A DNA stretch of 23,982 bases from IMG/VR virus record IMGVR_UViG_3300027881_000078, positions 1 to 23,982 of that record. One strand, 5' to 3'. The notes under the pieces were generated by a model. That model was given only the letters and a program-made list of their open reading frames with translations. It was not told where the DNA came from and did not search any database. This DNA comes from a virus. The translations under genes were made by a program, and so were the position numbers. Below are positions 3,506 through 10,541 of this stretch, in pieces (the stretch's first letter is position 1; every line of letters starts with the position of its first letter).

Positions 3506-3768
3506 GCAAAGTACGAAAAGTTGAACGCCTACCCATATATTACGTTGAGTGGGAAGATTCTGAATCATGGTCCGGTTGGTCTAAGAAAGATAGATTCCCA
3601 GAGTCTAATCTTTGCACGACGGTTGGATTTCTTGTTGCGGAAGAAGAACGATATTTTTTATTCGCTGGTTCCAATGATGGAATAATTAATGGTTATGTAA
3701 GCGAAGTGATGAGAATTCCTAAGGTGGCAATACGAAAGAAGCGAAGAATTCGGTATCCCGATGGTTGA
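3502..3768 (+). CDS. AT-rich 88-aa phage protein of unknown function
   Basis: Starts at ATG 3502 in an ATGA overlap with the previous stop. The product reads as a small beta-rich domain with YYVEWEDSESWSGW, then TTVGFLVAEEERYFLFAGS and a basic end (VAIRKKRRIRYPDG). The order "tryptophan and aspartate near the start, VGFL-hydrophobic strand, basic IR/RR end" resembles short hypothetical proteins I have met beside phage structural genes. I know of no proven role. The gene is strikingly different in composition: about 40% GC by hand count over 267 nt against GC-rich neighbours, with many A- and T-ending codons. This suggests recent acquisition. The coupled overlaps on both sides show it is integrated into the operon. 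Confidence 0.75.
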   Translation: MSKVRKVERLPIYYVEWEDSESWSGWSKKDRFPESNLCTTVGFLVAEEERYFLFAGSNDGIINGYVSEVMRIPKVAIRKKRRIRYPDG

Positions 3769-3955
3769 GCAAGCCAGATTGGAAGCCCGGATCGTATGTC
3801 CCACCTGCAACGTAACCCGGTTTCGCCTCTACTCCACTCCTGCACAGGGCAACGGCTCGGGGATCCGGGCGAACCGACTGGAGCCGACGCCGATCGGCAA
3901 CGATCACAAGCAGTGCTTCCGGTGCGGGACAGCGCTGGAACGGAGGGAGGCGTGA
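3761..3955 (+). CDS. Small CxxC zinc-ribbon-like protein (64 aa)
   Basis: ATG 3761 lies inside the end of the AT-rich gene (8-nt overlap). The 64-aa product carries two knuckles, IVCPTCN (C13/C16) and QCFRCG (C52/C55), 35 residues apart, the classic outline of a rubredoxin-like or ribbon zinc site. There is no other domain. Base composition returns to GC-rich. The family is not recognised. The gene ends GCGTGA, where GTG opens the next gene. Being a stand-alone ribbon, it could bind DNA, RNA or a terminase/portal partner; that is inference. Confidence 0.7.
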   Translation: MVEQARLEARIVCPTCNVTRFRLYSTPAQGNGSGIRANRLEPTPIGNDHKQCFRCGTALERREA

Positions 3956-4644: not shown

Positions 4645-6984
4645 ATGACCGCTCCGCCGATCACTGCCCCGAAGCGTGAGCGGACCCGCCGCAACCGGCT
4701 GCGTAAGAAGAAGCGCGAGCTGGCCGAGCGCGTGATCACGTTTGCCAAGGACGACCGCGACGGCCGCAAGGACACGCGCGAGCGTCGTCTTCAGCTGCAA
4801 GCCAAGCTGCGGATGTGGCAGGAGCGGGTGGAGAACCTGCCCTGGCCCGATGCCAGCAACGTGGCGCTGCCCGACATCGCGACCGCAAGCTTGATTGCTC
4901 AGGACTCCCTTCACAACGCGGTGTTGAGTAGCCGGCCTGCTGTCACTTCCAAGGCCGTGAGCCCGGGGGGTGAGGATTCTCAGGATCTGATCGACGACCT
5001 GCTCGACGCGCAGTTCTTCGTGGAGCACGACGGCGAGAAGACGATCGAGGACATGGCCCAGAACTTCGTCGAGGAGGGCCACACTCAGGTGCTCGTGACG
5101 TGGGTTCGCGAGAAGCGCTCGATCACGGATGTGCGAGTGCTGTCTCGGTTGCCGTTCGAGGTGGAGCCCGCCCAGTGGTTCCTCGAGCAGATCGGCAAGC
5201 ATTTCACCCAGGTTCCGGTACACCGAGAAGATGAGGACGGCTGGGATTGGCGCATAGAGGAGGAAGACGGCCACGTCAGTGTCAAGTTCTATACCCGGCC
5301 CAAGGACGGCAAGATCGAGATGTTGATCAAGCGGGACGTGGTGGTGCATGACGGTCCACTGCCGATTGTCTACGAGTACGACCGCTGTCTGTACCCGCCG
5401 CGCAGCAAGAATCTTCAGCCGCCCACCCCCAAGAACCCGGGCGGGGCGCCGCATGTGATCTTCGTGGATCGCCCCACGGTGGACGAGGTGAAGCGGCTCC
5501 AGCGCAGCGGCTTCTACGATTTGATCGGCCCCAAGGACATCAAGAAGATCGAGAAGGCGGCGATGGACCGCACCGAGGATGACGAGGAGCGGCAGAAGGA
5601 TGCGTTCCAGGGGGTGGATGACGAGACGCCGATCAAGGAGACGAGCCAGACCCGGGTGACCCGGTTCCTGTGCTTCGATCGCTTCGATCTCGATGGCGAT
5701 GGGCTCGACGAGGACGTCTGCTTCTGGGTGCTGAAGGAGGGCGGCTGGCTACTGAAAGCGCGGCCCATGACCGAGCTGTATCCCACCAAGGACGGAAGGC
5801 GGCCAATTGCGGAGGCAGCGTTTTTGCCCGAGGCGGGGCGCCGCGAGGGGATCTCGCTGCCGGAATTTCAGGAGGCGCTCCACGACATCTCCAAAGCGAC
5901 CTTCGACCAGATGGTGGACTCCGGCACCCTGGCGAATACTCCGTTCGGCTTCTATGACCCGACCGGGAACATGAAGCCCGACGTGATCACGATCTATCCG
6001 GGTGACCTCTACCCGATGCGCAACCCGCGGCAGAACGTCCACTACCCGACGTTTGCGGCTCAGAGTCAGACGTTCGGCATCAATTTGATGACGCTGGTCG
6101 ACAAGATGGATCAGCGGCTCACGGTCTTCAGCAACGAGCTGAACACCGGACAAGTGCCCAAGGGCCGGGCCTCTGCTCTGCGAAACGTGGGATCAATTGA
6201 TCGGATCCAGCAAGCGGGCGAGGCCCGTCCCGAGCGTGTGCTGCGCCGCTTCTTCACGGCGCTGAAGCAGATGTTCTCGTTGATGCACGAGTTCAACGGT
6301 TTCCTGATGCCGCCGGAGAAGCAGTTCACGCTGGTGGGCTATACGCGCCCGCATCAGAATCCATATCGCAAGGTGACAGCGTCGCAGGTGAACCGCGGCT
6401 TCGTGTTCGACTTCACGGCCAACGTCAAGAACGCCTCGCGGGGTGCTGCTTTCGAGCAGCTCCAGCAGGCGATGGGCTTGACGATCCAGGCGCTGCCGGT
6501 GGAGATGGGGATCACGCAGCCCGAGAATGTGTACCGGCTGCTGTTCGACGCGCTTCGCAAGATCGGCTTGAACGAGCCGCAGCGCTACATCAGCGAGCCC
6601 ACTCCAGCCAGCAACCTGCCGACGATTCTGGCGGAGGAGGCCATCGCCAACCTGCTGATGGAGCAGGCGCCGTTCGGCGAGCCGTTGGAGGGGGCGCAGC
6701 CGCATCTCGAGAAGCTGATCGAGTTCGAGCGGGATGATGAGCAGTTCGCAGCCATGACCCGGCGCGGCGCGCAGATGTTCAAGATCTACGCAGAGGAGGT
6801 GGCGCGCAAGGCGCAGGAAGAGAAGCAGCTGGCTGCGCAGGCGGCGCAGGCGGATCAGTTCGGAAATCCGGTAGGCCCTTCAGGACCGCGACAGCCGCAG
6901 GCGCCCGCTCCGGTAGATGAGGGCAACCCGCCCGTGCAGGGTGCGGAGCTACTCAACGAAGAGCTTCAGGAGGGTGGCGGATGA
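4645..6984 (+). CDS. Portal protein
   Basis: The 779-aa product matches the large portal class of short-tailed phages, a dodecameric ring at one head vertex through which DNA passes and on which TerL docks. Features by residue: a strongly basic N-terminus (9-30); ENLPWPDASNVALP (63-76), a WP/N-rich start typical of this family; ATASLIAQDSL (80-89); a DxDxDG-type loop at 348-357 that could bind calcium; and a long helical region with TLVDKMDQRLT and VPKGRASALRN (483-513). The wing/crown part ends with a helical, glutamine- and proline-rich tail (715-779). GGAGGT at 4631-4636 precedes ATG 4645. It follows terminase and precedes scaffold and capsid, the expected place. Assignment is strong by length, context and motif style; I did not align it. 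Confidence 0.85.
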   Translation: MTAPPITAPKRERTRRNRLRKKKRELAERVITFAKDDRDGRKDTRERRLQLQAKLRMWQERVENLPWPDASNVALPDIATASLIAQDSLHNAVLSSRPAVTSKAVSPGGEDSQDLIDDLLDAQFFVEHDGEKTIEDMAQNFVEEGHTQVLVTWVREKRSITDVRVLSRLPFEVEPAQWFLEQIGKHFTQVPVHREDEDGWDWRIEEEDGHVSVKFYTRPKDGKIEMLIKRDVVVHDGPLPIVYEYDRCLYPPRSKNLQPPTPKNPGGAPHVIFVDRPTVDEVKRLQRSGFYDLIGPKDIKKIEKAAMDRTEDDEERQKDAFQGVDDETPIKETSQTRVTRFLCFDRFDLDGDGLDEDVCFWVLKEGGWLLKARPMTELYPTKDGRRPIAEAAFLPEAGRREGISLPEFQEALHDISKATFDQMVDSGTLANTPFGFYDPTGNMKPDVITIYPGDLYPMRNPRQNVHYPTFAAQSQTFGINLMTLVDKMDQRLTVFSNELNTGQVPKGRASALRNVGSIDRIQQAGEARPERVLRRFFTALKQMFSLMHEFNGFLMPPEKQFTLVGYTRPHQNPYRKVTASQVNRGFVFDFTANVKNASRGAAFEQLQQAMGLTIQALPVEMGITQPENVYRLLFDALRKIGLNEPQRYISEPTPASNLPTILAEEAIANLLMEQAPFGEPLEGAQPHLEKLIEFERDDEQFAAMTRRGAQMFKIYAEEVARKAQEEKQLAAQAAQADQFGNPVGPSGPRQPQAPAPVDEGNPPVQGAELLNEELQEGGG

Positions 6985-7349
6985 GCTTGAGTCGGGAGGA
7001 GTATCAGGGGCGTGTGGATGCGGCACTCAACGACCATCACCGCCAACAGGCACGGAAGGTCGAGGCGGCTATCTACCAGCTCCGGCAGGCTGAGGTGCCG
7101 ATCACGAAGCTGACGCAGGACCCGAATTGGAACTACTACCTGTCGCTTCTCCAGTCCAAGATCGAGGAGTCCACCATGTCACTGCGCGCAGCGCAGGAGG
7201 ACCGAACGGTGGACTTCAGCCATGCCGTGCTCGCAGAGCGGCGGGCTCAGGTGTTGGCTTGGCAGGCTCGGATCGACACGCTCGAAGAGGTGCTTCATCT
7301 GCCCACAGACATTTTGTCCGGTGCGAAGGCGAATGTTGAAGAGGGTTGA
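6981..7349 (+). CDS. Helical portal-adjacent protein of unknown function (122 aa)
   Basis: ATG 6981 overlaps the portal stop (ATGA). The product is helical throughout: EEYQGRVDAALNDHHRQQ, then a longer pair of helices around AQVLAWQARIDTLEEVLHLP. It has one central segment with aromatic residues (DPNWNYYLSLL, about 47-57). No cysteine or membrane segment is present. Small helical proteins just after the portal often belong to the head-completion set or are non-structural; I do not recognise this one. Its end overlaps the start of the Com-like gene by 17 nt. Confidence 0.75.
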   Translation: MSLSREEYQGRVDAALNDHHRQQARKVEAAIYQLRQAEVPITKLTQDPNWNYYLSLLQSKIEESTMSLRAAQEDRTVDFSHAVLAERRAQVLAWQARIDTLEEVLHLPTDILSGAKANVEEG

Positions 7350-7512
7350 TCTCCGCTGCCCGAAATGCGGCCGACTGCTTTTGCGTTTCGCGCCAAGTGC
7401 GCGAAACGACATAGAAATCCGTTGCCGCGGCTGCAAATCCTGGGTGCTTTTGGAAGGCTTCCACCTGTCGGTGTCCCCGGGTTCGGTTGACATGGCGAAA
7501 AACATGGCGTAA
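7333..7512 (+). CDS. Com-like zinc-ribbon protein (59 aa)
   Basis: The product begins MLKRVDLRCPKCGRLLLRF and continues to IEIRCRGCKSW, with cysteines at 9, 12, 31 and 34. This closely follows the Mu Com family, in which CxxC-x-LLx, a short loop and IEIxCxRC make one zinc ribbon. Mu Com (62 aa) binds a stem-loop in the mom mRNA and opens it for translation. Here no mom-like gene is visible; the next gene is the scaffold, after a 172-nt structured leader. ATG 7333 is the earliest reasonable start and overlaps the preceding gene by 17 nt; its ribosome site GAAGG is only three bases away, so a slightly later start is possible. The assignment to the family is good; the target is inference. Confidence 0.8.
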   Translation: MLKRVDLRCPKCGRLLLRFAPSARNDIEIRCRGCKSWVLLEGFHLSVSPGSVDMAKNMA

Positions 7513-7555
7513 TGGACTGATAGAGCAGCTTTATCGCGCGCCCTTGAGCGCCTAC

Positions 7556-7592
7556 AACAGGCTGTCGGAACTCGCGGTTCCGGCGGTCTGTT
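7556..7592 (+). promoter_or_regulatory. 16-bp RNA hairpin upstream of the scaffold gene
   Basis: Bases 7556-7571 pair with 7577-7592 without a gap around the five-base loop TCGCG. The inner arm is CGGAAC/GTTCCG (6 pairs), the middle is GCTGT/GCGGT (5 pairs, 3 of them G-U) and the outer is AACAG/CTGTT (5 pairs). The G-U pairs exist only in plus-strand RNA; in the minus-strand transcript they would be C-A mismatches, so the structure belongs to the late transcript. A T-rich stretch (TTTGTCGTTT, 7591-7600) follows, so weak termination is possible. Alternatively it is a protein-binding stem, perhaps for the Com-like product encoded just upstream. Confidence 0.6.
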
Positions 7593-7614
7593 TGTCGTTT
7601 GAGGATCGGTGGAA

Positions 7615-7643
7615 GCGGCTCAGGATTCGCCGCCCGAAGCGGC
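7615..7643 (+). promoter_or_regulatory. Alternative stem segments in the scaffold leader
   Basis: Three five-base segments occur in order: GCGGC (7615-7619), GCCGC (7629-7633) and GCGGC (7639-7643). The middle one can pair with either outer one, making two mutually exclusive stems. This resembles attenuator architecture, but the stems are short and high GC content makes chance pairings common. Confidence 0.3.
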
Positions 7644-7684
7644 AGCGCAGTCGTCAACCCGCATCGACAACGGGAGGGAGTCTC

Positions 7685-8449
7685 ATGGGTATCGGTGGTA
7701 CAGAAAATCCGGCAGGTGCTTCTCAGTCCGAGCCGGGAGACTCCCAAGAAAACTCGATCCCGCATTCCCGTGTGGTGGAGATGGTCGGGAAAGCCAAGGA
7801 CGAGATGCGAGCCGAGAACGAGCAGCAGCTCCAGGCTCAAGAGCAACGGCTTCGCGCCGAGGCCGCCCAGATGATGGCGGCCCGGCCCGAGGCCCAGCCT
7901 GCCGTGACTCGCGAGTCGCTCACCCAGATGGTGAACGAGGGCACGATCACGCAGACCCAGATGGACGTCGAGCTGGATCGCCAGCGCGCCGCACAGATCG
8001 AGCAGGACATCGATGCCAAGGTTGAGGCCAAGGTCAGCGAGCGCGAGACGAAGAAGAAGGTTCAATCGGAGTTCGACGCCTACCTTCAGGCTATGCCCTC
8101 CATCAAGGTCCGTACCAGCGACGAGTTTCGTCGGGCGGGTGTTGAGATGAAGAAGCTGATGGATGAAGGCCATCCCAACGATCTGCGCACCGAGGTGCTG
8201 GCGATGAAGCTGGCCTTCGGTCCCGCAGAGGCGCTGACACGCAATCCGAACGATCGCGAGACGCACGAGGATGGCGCAGGTGGGGATGGAGGAGCTGAAA
8301 CGAAGTCCTCGACCGAGGAGCCCGGCGGCCCGCCCAAGGGTCTCGATGCGCGTCGCAAGGCGTACTACGAGAAGGAGATCGCCCGCGGCATCTACACCGG
8401 CTGGGACGATCCGATGGTGGTGAGCCAGATCAAGCGGGTGGGTGCGTGA
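7685..8449 (+). CDS. Scaffold-like head assembly protein
   Basis: Start ATG 7685 follows GGGAGGGAG at five bases. The 254-aa product is highly charged and mostly coiled-coil. A disordered N-terminus (1-27) comes first, then a glutamine/glutamate/arginine-rich helix with EQQLQAQEQRLRAEAAQM. A second long helix region around DRQRAAQIEQDIDAKVEAKV reaches about residue 130, and a disordered acidic linker follows (about 190-220). The C-terminus is basic-aromatic, with ARRKAYYEKEIARGIYTGW. Scaffolds are typically like this, bind capsid protein through the C-terminus and leave the head before or during packaging. Position between portal and capsid protein supports it. Sequence divergence of scaffolds prevents a firmer call. 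Confidence 0.75.
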   Translation: MGIGGTENPAGASQSEPGDSQENSIPHSRVVEMVGKAKDEMRAENEQQLQAQEQRLRAEAAQMMAARPEAQPAVTRESLTQMVNEGTITQTQMDVELDRQRAAQIEQDIDAKVEAKVSERETKKKVQSEFDAYLQAMPSIKVRTSDEFRRAGVEMKKLMDEGHPNDLRTEVLAMKLAFGPAEALTRNPNDRETHEDGAGGDGGAETKSSTEEPGGPPKGLDARRKAYYEKEIARGIYTGWDDPMVVSQIKRVGA

Positions 8450-9620: not shown

Positions 9621-10541
9621 ATGACAGTTCCGCACGTTTCAGAGAACTTTGGCGATCTCGTCGATCCGCGCTTCCAGGATGTGTGGAACGATCGGCTCGC
9701 GCAGCTCCAGGACAAGATTCCCGAGCTGTTCAACTTCGAATCGGCAACGAAGACCACCGAAGACATGCGGTTCACGCAGGTCGGTACGCTGGACGACTGG
9801 AACGCCTTCTCGGGCACGGTCGACTACGATTCGGTGTCTCAGGGGTACGACGTCACGACCACCCCGGTGGAGTTCACCAAGGGTGTTCAGGTCAGCCGCA
9901 AGCTGTTCGACGACGGCATGTACCATGTCATGGACCAGAAGCCGAAGGCGATGGCGACGTCCTACATGCGGACGAGGCAGAAGCACGCCGCAAGGCTCTT
10001 CACGATGGCGTTCTCCACGGATCCGTTCTTCTACAGCCATTCTGAGAACGTCGCGCTCTGCTCCAATTCGCACACCACGACCTCCGGTGCGTCGACCACG
10101 AATGGGTTCGACAACCTGGGAACCGCGGCGCTTTCGGCCGTATCGGTGGCGGCGGCTCGGATCCAGATGCGCGGCTACCGAGGAGATCGGGCCGAGCGGA
10201 TCCATGTCATGCCGAACGAGATCTGGCACCCGCCCGATCTCTTCGAAGTGGCTCAGGAGATCAACCAGTCTTCGGGCAAGCTCGACACGGCGAACAACAA
10301 CGTCAACGTCCATCAGGGCCAGTACACCCTCCACGACTGGGAGTACATGAGCAACACCAAGGACTGGTTCATGGCCGACTCCGTGCAGCGGTCGGACAGT
10401 CTCAAGTGGTGGGACCGGGTTCCGGTCGAGTTCGCGCATGTCGAGGACTTCGATACCCTGATCGCCAAGTGGCGCGGGTACGCCCGATACTCGTGGCTCT
10501 ACATCGACTGGCGCTTCATCTTCGGCAGCAACGTCGCGTAG
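9621..10541 (+). CDS. Major capsid protein (HK97-type, inferred)
   Basis: The 306-aa product builds the icosahedral shell. It starts behind GGAGAG (ATG 9621). Its order of motifs is what I expect of this class: an N-terminal helix with VDPRFQDVWNDRL; FTKGVQVSRKLFDDGMYHVM (about 90-110), a conserved E-loop/spine region; RIHVMPNEIWHPPDLF (about 194-209); and a C-terminal LKWWDRVPVEF, then FDTLIAKWRGYARYSWLYIDWRF (about 277-300). The WRF/W-aromatic end and IHVMPN strand are typical of capsid proteins in the Mu gpT-like group and relatives. It is a single polypeptide with no evident propeptide cleavage motif. The capsid call is firm; fold class is by resemblance. Confidence 0.9.
   Translation: MTVPHVSENFGDLVDPRFQDVWNDRLAQLQDKIPELFNFESATKTTEDMRFTQVGTLDDWNAFSGTVDYDSVSQGYDVTTTPVEFTKGVQVSRKLFDDGMYHVMDQKPKAMATSYMRTRQKHAARLFTMAFSTDPFFYSHSENVALCSNSHTTTSGASTTNGFDNLGTAALSAVSVAAARIQMRGYRGDRAERIHVMPNEIWHPPDLFEVAQEINQSSGKLDTANNNVNVHQGQYTLHDWEYMSNTKDWFMADSVQRSDSLKWWDRVPVEFAHVEDFDTLIAKWRGYARYSWLYIDWRFIFGSNVA

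Follow-up and report, generated by a model that had tools for sequence, protein, structure and literature searches.

What does a Com-like protein do when the next gene is not mom but a putative scaffold gene? Com is a textbook translational activator, and to our knowledge it has one characterized target, mom. The IMG/VR virus record IMGVR_UViG_3300027881_000078, a fragment of 23,982 bp that we analyzed in full and refer to as the window, raises this question: as first described in a prediction made from the window's sequence (the original prediction), a 59-amino-acid (aa) com-like open reading frame is followed by a 172-nucleotide (nt) leader (7513-7684) with a stable hairpin, and then by the scaffold gene. 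On balance, we think that the leader holds a switch between a terminator and an antiterminator, which Com would control and which would gate the head genes. We compared gene order, an RNA site (the Com box), the hairpin, the terminator features of relatives, and mutually exclusive folds; from these we infer binding, read-through, promoter activity, and timing. The elements of the proposed switch are as follows:

7333..7512, + strand: com-like gene, 59-aa zinc ribbon (PHROG profiles; same slot in 13 relatives; AlphaFold2 [AF2] model)
7536..7552, + strand: Com box GCGCGCCCTTGAGCGCC, with the hairpin GCGC[CCUUGA]GCGC at 7538-7551 (13/14 to the bipartite motif; fits the published loop)
7553..7596, + strand: strong hairpin, terminator-like, with a poor U-tract (tail TTGTCGTT after 7591); -26.7 kcal/mol; terminators at the homologous position in relatives
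7542..7604, + strand: extended pairing of 7542-7550 (3' half of the Com box) with 7596-7604, from the minimum-energy fold; exclusive with the Com-box hairpin
7672..7679, + strand: probable ribosome-binding site GGGAGGGA of the scaffold gene, from the sequence
7685..8449, + strand: putative scaffold gene, 254 aa, between the portal and major capsid genes in a conserved order

PHROG profiles place the 59-aa protein in the Com group, although it falls below the Pfam cutoff. Its reading frame, from the ATG at 7333 to the TAA at 7512, encodes the cysteine pattern CX2C-X18-CX2C (a CCCC zinc ribbon). It matches PHROG 6417 ("translational regulator," E = 1.3e-6) and PHROG 13819 (gpCom, E = 5e-4), and it matches Pfam's Com family (PF10122) with E = 0.005 and 16.6 bits, below the cutoff of 22.9. 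The original prediction stated that the protein closely resembles Mu Com. The PHROG profiles agree that it is of the Com type, but "closely" is too strong, as the two proteins align with 24% identity. A bridging homologue from an unrelated phage (L136) is 41% identical to Mu Com, and the genome with the orthologue L093/L128 has one match to PF10122 above the curated cutoff. The first five homologues in the same slot share R8, C9, C12, G13, L16, C31, C34, and K35. The AF2 model is an all-beta ribbon (mean predicted local distance difference test [pLDDT] of 83); a Foldseek search with this predicted fold gave no match at E < 0.001.

As judged from its sequence and fold, the leader holds a Com-type RNA site beside the com gene. 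Systematic evolution of ligands by exponential enrichment (SELEX) and footprinting of a Mu-like Com identified the site GAG(N)2CC, usually bipartite, and this Com also takes CC(N)2-3GAG in a loop closed by C-G, in which the GA is essential (PMC6483171). The window's box matches GAGCGCC-N2/3-GAGCGCC at 13 of 14 positions, a score that 0 of 400 shuffles reach, and it is the only 13/14 site on either strand of the whole window. The background rate of such sites in 2.5 Mb of sequence from relatives is about 0.002 per 172 nt, true sites included. In addition, the hairpin at 7538-7551 fits the published CC(N)2-3GAG loop closed by C-G.

Directly 3' of the box is the large hairpin, whose arms (7556-7571 and 7577-7592) are 81% complementary without gaps. 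None of 200 shuffles reach the energy of its fold (z = -6.3). The window's minimum-energy fold draws the 3' half of the box into an extended stem, which excludes the Com hairpin. No known Rfam element was matched in the leader. The scaffold frame is open upstream through the leader in the window, and we considered whether the leader might encode an N-terminal extension of the scaffold protein. Two observations speak against this: a near-identical contig (L003) has a 1-base insertion opposite window position 7658, in a C-run of the leader, which breaks the upstream frame, and in several relatives, stop codons lie a short distance before the scaffold start. The original description of the leader as untranslated stands. 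The com-leader region of the window is shared by two near-identical contigs.

Searches with the portal and capsid proteins identified about 110 loci of the same kind, of which 69 are non-redundant. In 14 of the 69 (window included), com lies between a conserved 122-aa gene and the scaffold gene, so the conservation of the com-leader-scaffold order that was to be sought in related phages was found. We considered a hairpin in the spacer to be terminator-like if it had an energy of -15 kcal/mol or better and was followed by a T-rich tail, with dinucleotide shuffles as the control. By this rule, 11 of the 14 com loci have a terminator-like hairpin (shuffle mean, 0.48; maximum, 2), and a weaker but similar hairpin is visible by eye at a twelfth (L099). 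In most relatives, a U-run follows the hairpin. The distance from the hairpin to the scaffold start is 18 to 93 nt across the com loci.

Compensatory changes in the stem had also been suggested as a check, and here the outcome was mixed. The large hairpin is not a conserved covarying structure: its stems are wholly different between relatives, and only its position and kind are kept. The small stem of the Com box does covary across phages (0.414 versus 0.218, 0/500), with compensatory changes between GC and AU and between CG and UA, and slid controls collapse. Counts of GAGNNCC were rejected as evidence on their own: they are high relative to mononucleotide shuffles, but some of these sites are ribosome-binding sites, so we used a structural test instead. 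Loops that are closed by C-G, end in GA, and have at least 4 pairs are present in 5 of 12 leaders, versus 0.66 expected, and GA is the commonest of the 16 possible loop endings.

The 3' end of com contains promoter-like elements:

7487..7492, + strand: TTGACA, -35-like element inside the 3' end of com (TTGAC(A/G) in 11/14 clade com loci)
7510..7515, + strand: TAATGG, weak -10-like element, with a 17-bp spacer from TTGACA; overlaps the com stop codon

In those 11 loci, versus 0.54 expected, TTGAC(A/G) lies between 60 nt before the end of com and 20 nt after it. Because it occupies two different codon phases among the com genes of the clade, coding does not explain it. TA follows at a spacing of 16 to 18 in 7 of the 11 loci (p = 0.001). 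In several relatives, the gap between the terminator and the scaffold gene is too short for another promoter, so the scaffold gene must be read through the hairpin. Two further observations concern individual loci: the scaffold frame seems to be shifted in L006:5685-6210, where the N- and C-terminal parts are in different frames, and in L091:3617-3895, the com frame stays open across the terminator hairpin, and there is no TTGACA.

Under the proposed switch, the Com-like protein would regulate by binding RNA, and its target would be the leader that immediately follows its own gene; we think that the window's Com relative probably does act on this leader. RNA that includes the leader would come either from transcription that continues past the portal operon or from the -35-like element at the 3' end of com. 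Transcription of the leader would make the Com box first and then the hairpin, which would tend to stop transcription. Bound Com would hold the box as a small hairpin with a GA loop, which would prevent or weaken the larger stem, and polymerase would then continue into the scaffold and capsid genes. Since com is downstream of the portal gene, the head-shell genes would open only once transcription of the portal gene has begun. This arrangement suggests that Com sets the timing of head-gene transcription. Antiterminators that bind RNA, such as those of the LicT/SacY or TRAP type, stabilize one RNA fold and so prevent a mutually exclusive terminator. The logic proposed for Com would be the same, but Com belongs to an unrelated protein family, has no ligand, would act in a phage head operon, and is proposed for this role from sequence comparison. 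Phage leader hairpins also govern termination in the put RNA of HK022 (PMC9378689), although put works without a phage protein.

A wider search for Com found it in three settings: with mom, with an adenine methylase, and before head genes. Of the 21 com loci outside the clade that are followed by something other than a modification gene, 15 have a terminator-like hairpin between com and the next gene (shuffles, 0.54), and the genes downstream of the tested loci include those for prohead protease, portal, and scaffold. The series com, box, terminator, head gene is thus seen in unrelated phages, often with a covarying box. Box scores summed over 32 other com loci were 332, versus 260 for shuffled sequences (shuffle maximum, 274). 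L211 has TTGACA-N17-TATGCT, then the box, a terminator, and a protease-like gene. In L136, L170, L196, and L270, the box lies inside the 5' arm of the terminator, which makes the box hairpin and the terminator mutually exclusive. We also searched viral contigs for the box alone and obtained at least 122 distinct matches. Among the 122 listed, com was within 600 nt upstream on the same strand in 6 cases and in the other three orientations in none; com is found in 10 of 754 sampled genomes at an E value threshold of 0.001, or about 1%. In 2 of these 6 cases (L241 and L270), the box is followed by a terminator and then by a portal or protease gene. In prophage loci with com and a methylase or mom, the box is at the 3' end of com. 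These comparisons support the view that head genes are a class of Com targets outside com-mom.

The slot of com can also be filled by another gene. In 12 relatives (L011, L013, L019, L028, L077, L080, L096, L100, L109, L114, L118, and L123), an unrelated protein of about 61 aa, with the motif RTGNVVLNIKDG, is encoded between the 122-aa gene and the scaffold gene. Profile searches gave no family match for this protein. Its gene is followed by its own covarying hairpin of 17 nt in 9 of the 12 loci and by a terminator in all 12. A small regulator gene and a terminator occur together in 23 of 26 loci, versus 4 of 43 (Fisher 2.9e-11, with phylogeny ignored). This pattern suggests that the position of com is a slot for exchangeable leader regulators. 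TTGAC(A/G) is also present inside the 61-aa gene in L011, L013, L019, L028, L077, L080, L109, L114, L118, and L123; it is at a Leu/Val-Asp position and is always CTTGAC or GTTGAC, which hints at a DNA-level element. In L016, L052, L095, and L106, the scaffold gene is preceded by a small gene of a third type (88-96 aa, motif L.RRAV.Q.F), without a terminator.

Several points weigh against the switch. The U-tract of the window's hairpin (TTGTCGTT) is weak, whereas those in L006, L010, L032, and L093 are strong, so the hairpin in the window may not terminate transcription. Within the clade, the canonical box is found only in the window and L093: the box scores of L006, L010, L032, L091, and others are no better than those of shuffles, and the sum for the clade (134, versus 127 shuffled) is not significant apart from these two. 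The box consensus was fixed after L136 and L211 had been seen, with its core taken from SELEX. The -10 element is poor in the window and weak in the clade (p = 0.06 for the full -10 matrix). At many other loci, the box stands before a methylase or mom gene with no terminator, and there Com acts on translation. Finally, the relatives are not independent, so our p values are optimistic.

The original prediction was that Com controls translation of the scaffold or later head genes by acting on the leader. Action of Com on the leader, with head genes as targets, fits with the Com box in the leader, the conserved gene order, and the com-box-terminator-head gene series in unrelated phages. As for translation, Com would bind the box, remodel the leader, and expose the scaffold start, with the hairpin as the inhibitor of translation. 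Translation control is the only function for which Com has been tested (PMC6483171), a large part of the leader is paired in the full-leader fold, and many boxes lie at com-methylase or com-mom junctions that lack a terminator. Also, as in Mu, a small CCCC zinc-ribbon protein is encoded upstream of the target, and a hairpin with a CC(N)2-3GAG loop lies beside an inhibitory structure; the Mu box GAATGCCTGCGAGCATC aligns with that of the window. The window differs from Mu in that com and its target do not overlap, no mom or methylase gene is seen, and the target is a scaffold/capsid leader with a noncoding spacer and a terminator-like hairpin. Moreover, the leader does not support control of translation initiation as first proposed: the hairpin is clear of the ribosome-binding site, with about 90 nt between its end and the scaffold ATG in the window and 18 to 80 nt in relatives, and it is followed in most relatives by the U-run that is typical of terminators, far above chance. 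Together, these features are the anatomy of transcription attenuation. We view translation control as unlikely, though least so for the window with its poor U-tract.

Another mechanism would be processive antitermination, in which Com joins polymerase near the promoter and carries it through this terminator and later ones. The arrangement is that of lambda Q-pR'-tR': a regulator gene immediately precedes a promoter-like element, which is followed by a short leader, a terminator, and the late genes. In addition, L211 has its promoter-like sequence before the box and terminator, and the 61-aa gene in the same slot has its own covarying hairpin. However, Q acts on polymerase at promoter DNA, whereas the window has an RNA box, a weak promoter, and an unrelated protein. 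We saw no sign of contact between Com and polymerase, the -10 elements of the clade are weak, and where the box overlaps the terminator arm, local refolding is a simpler explanation; we consider a Q-like mechanism improbable. The terminator might instead be an ordinary leaky one that sets the ratio between operons, with Com unrelated to it. Terminators do follow the non-Com small gene in 12 relatives, and most leaders of the clade lack a canonical box, but the box, its covariation, and its link to com in the blind search would be left unexplained, and we give this idea little credence. A short noncoding RNA of about 80 nt, defined by the -35-like element and the terminator, with Com as a neighbor or as a titrated protein, seems very improbable. 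The terminator does lie about 100 nt after TTGACA in 11 loci, but apart from the motifs, relatives do not share a conserved leader sequence, no Rfam family matches the leader, and in relatives that lack room for a promoter after the terminator, the scaffold gene is read through.

Around these elements, the gene order of the window is terminase, portal, the 122-aa gene, com, the 172-nt spacer, putative scaffold, a 133-aa gene, a decoration-like gene, and major capsid. Besides the genes listed above, these include:

4645..6984, + strand: portal gene, SU10-like (PF23899, E = 2e-30), upstream of com and in the same direction
6981..7349, + strand: conserved 122-aa gene, function unassigned, which overlaps portal and com; homologues at the same position in most relatives
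9621..10541, + strand: major capsid protein gene (PF25209, E = 3e-8)

In profile searches of the window's proteins, the putative scaffold protein had no Pfam match and a marginal match to a PHROG of unassigned function; its name is from its position and composition. Phage records that we searched for close relatives of the window gave distant portal matches only. The original prediction had noted that no mom gene is visible, and none is seen in the window; since the record is a 24-kb fragment, mom may be present elsewhere, and its absence cannot be claimed for the whole genome. The window also contains a second small zinc-ribbon gene (64 aa, 3761-3955) upstream of portal, and open reading frames similar to it lie just downstream of portal in L026, L027, L029, L030, L031, and L033.

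In a review of bacteriocins from 2018, com-like genes are described before genes for bacteriocins, lysis enzymes, and levansucrase, and the general role of Com is named as a matter for future study (PMC6240691). Our search of the literature found no report of Com acting on head genes or on terminators. A broader proposal, to which we give a little less than even credence, is that Com proteins are widespread phage antiterminators, each encoded directly 5' of a Com box in competition with an intrinsic terminator, and together gate portal, protease, scaffold, or capsid genes in unrelated tailed phages; com-mom would then be a specialized translational offshoot. The module of box and terminator offers a testable general role for Com and a defined RNA site for which any genome can be scanned. 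It may also explain how phages order the synthesis of the portal and the shell. Com hairpins are in use as RNA tags, so new pairs of Com proteins and boxes may be useful as well.
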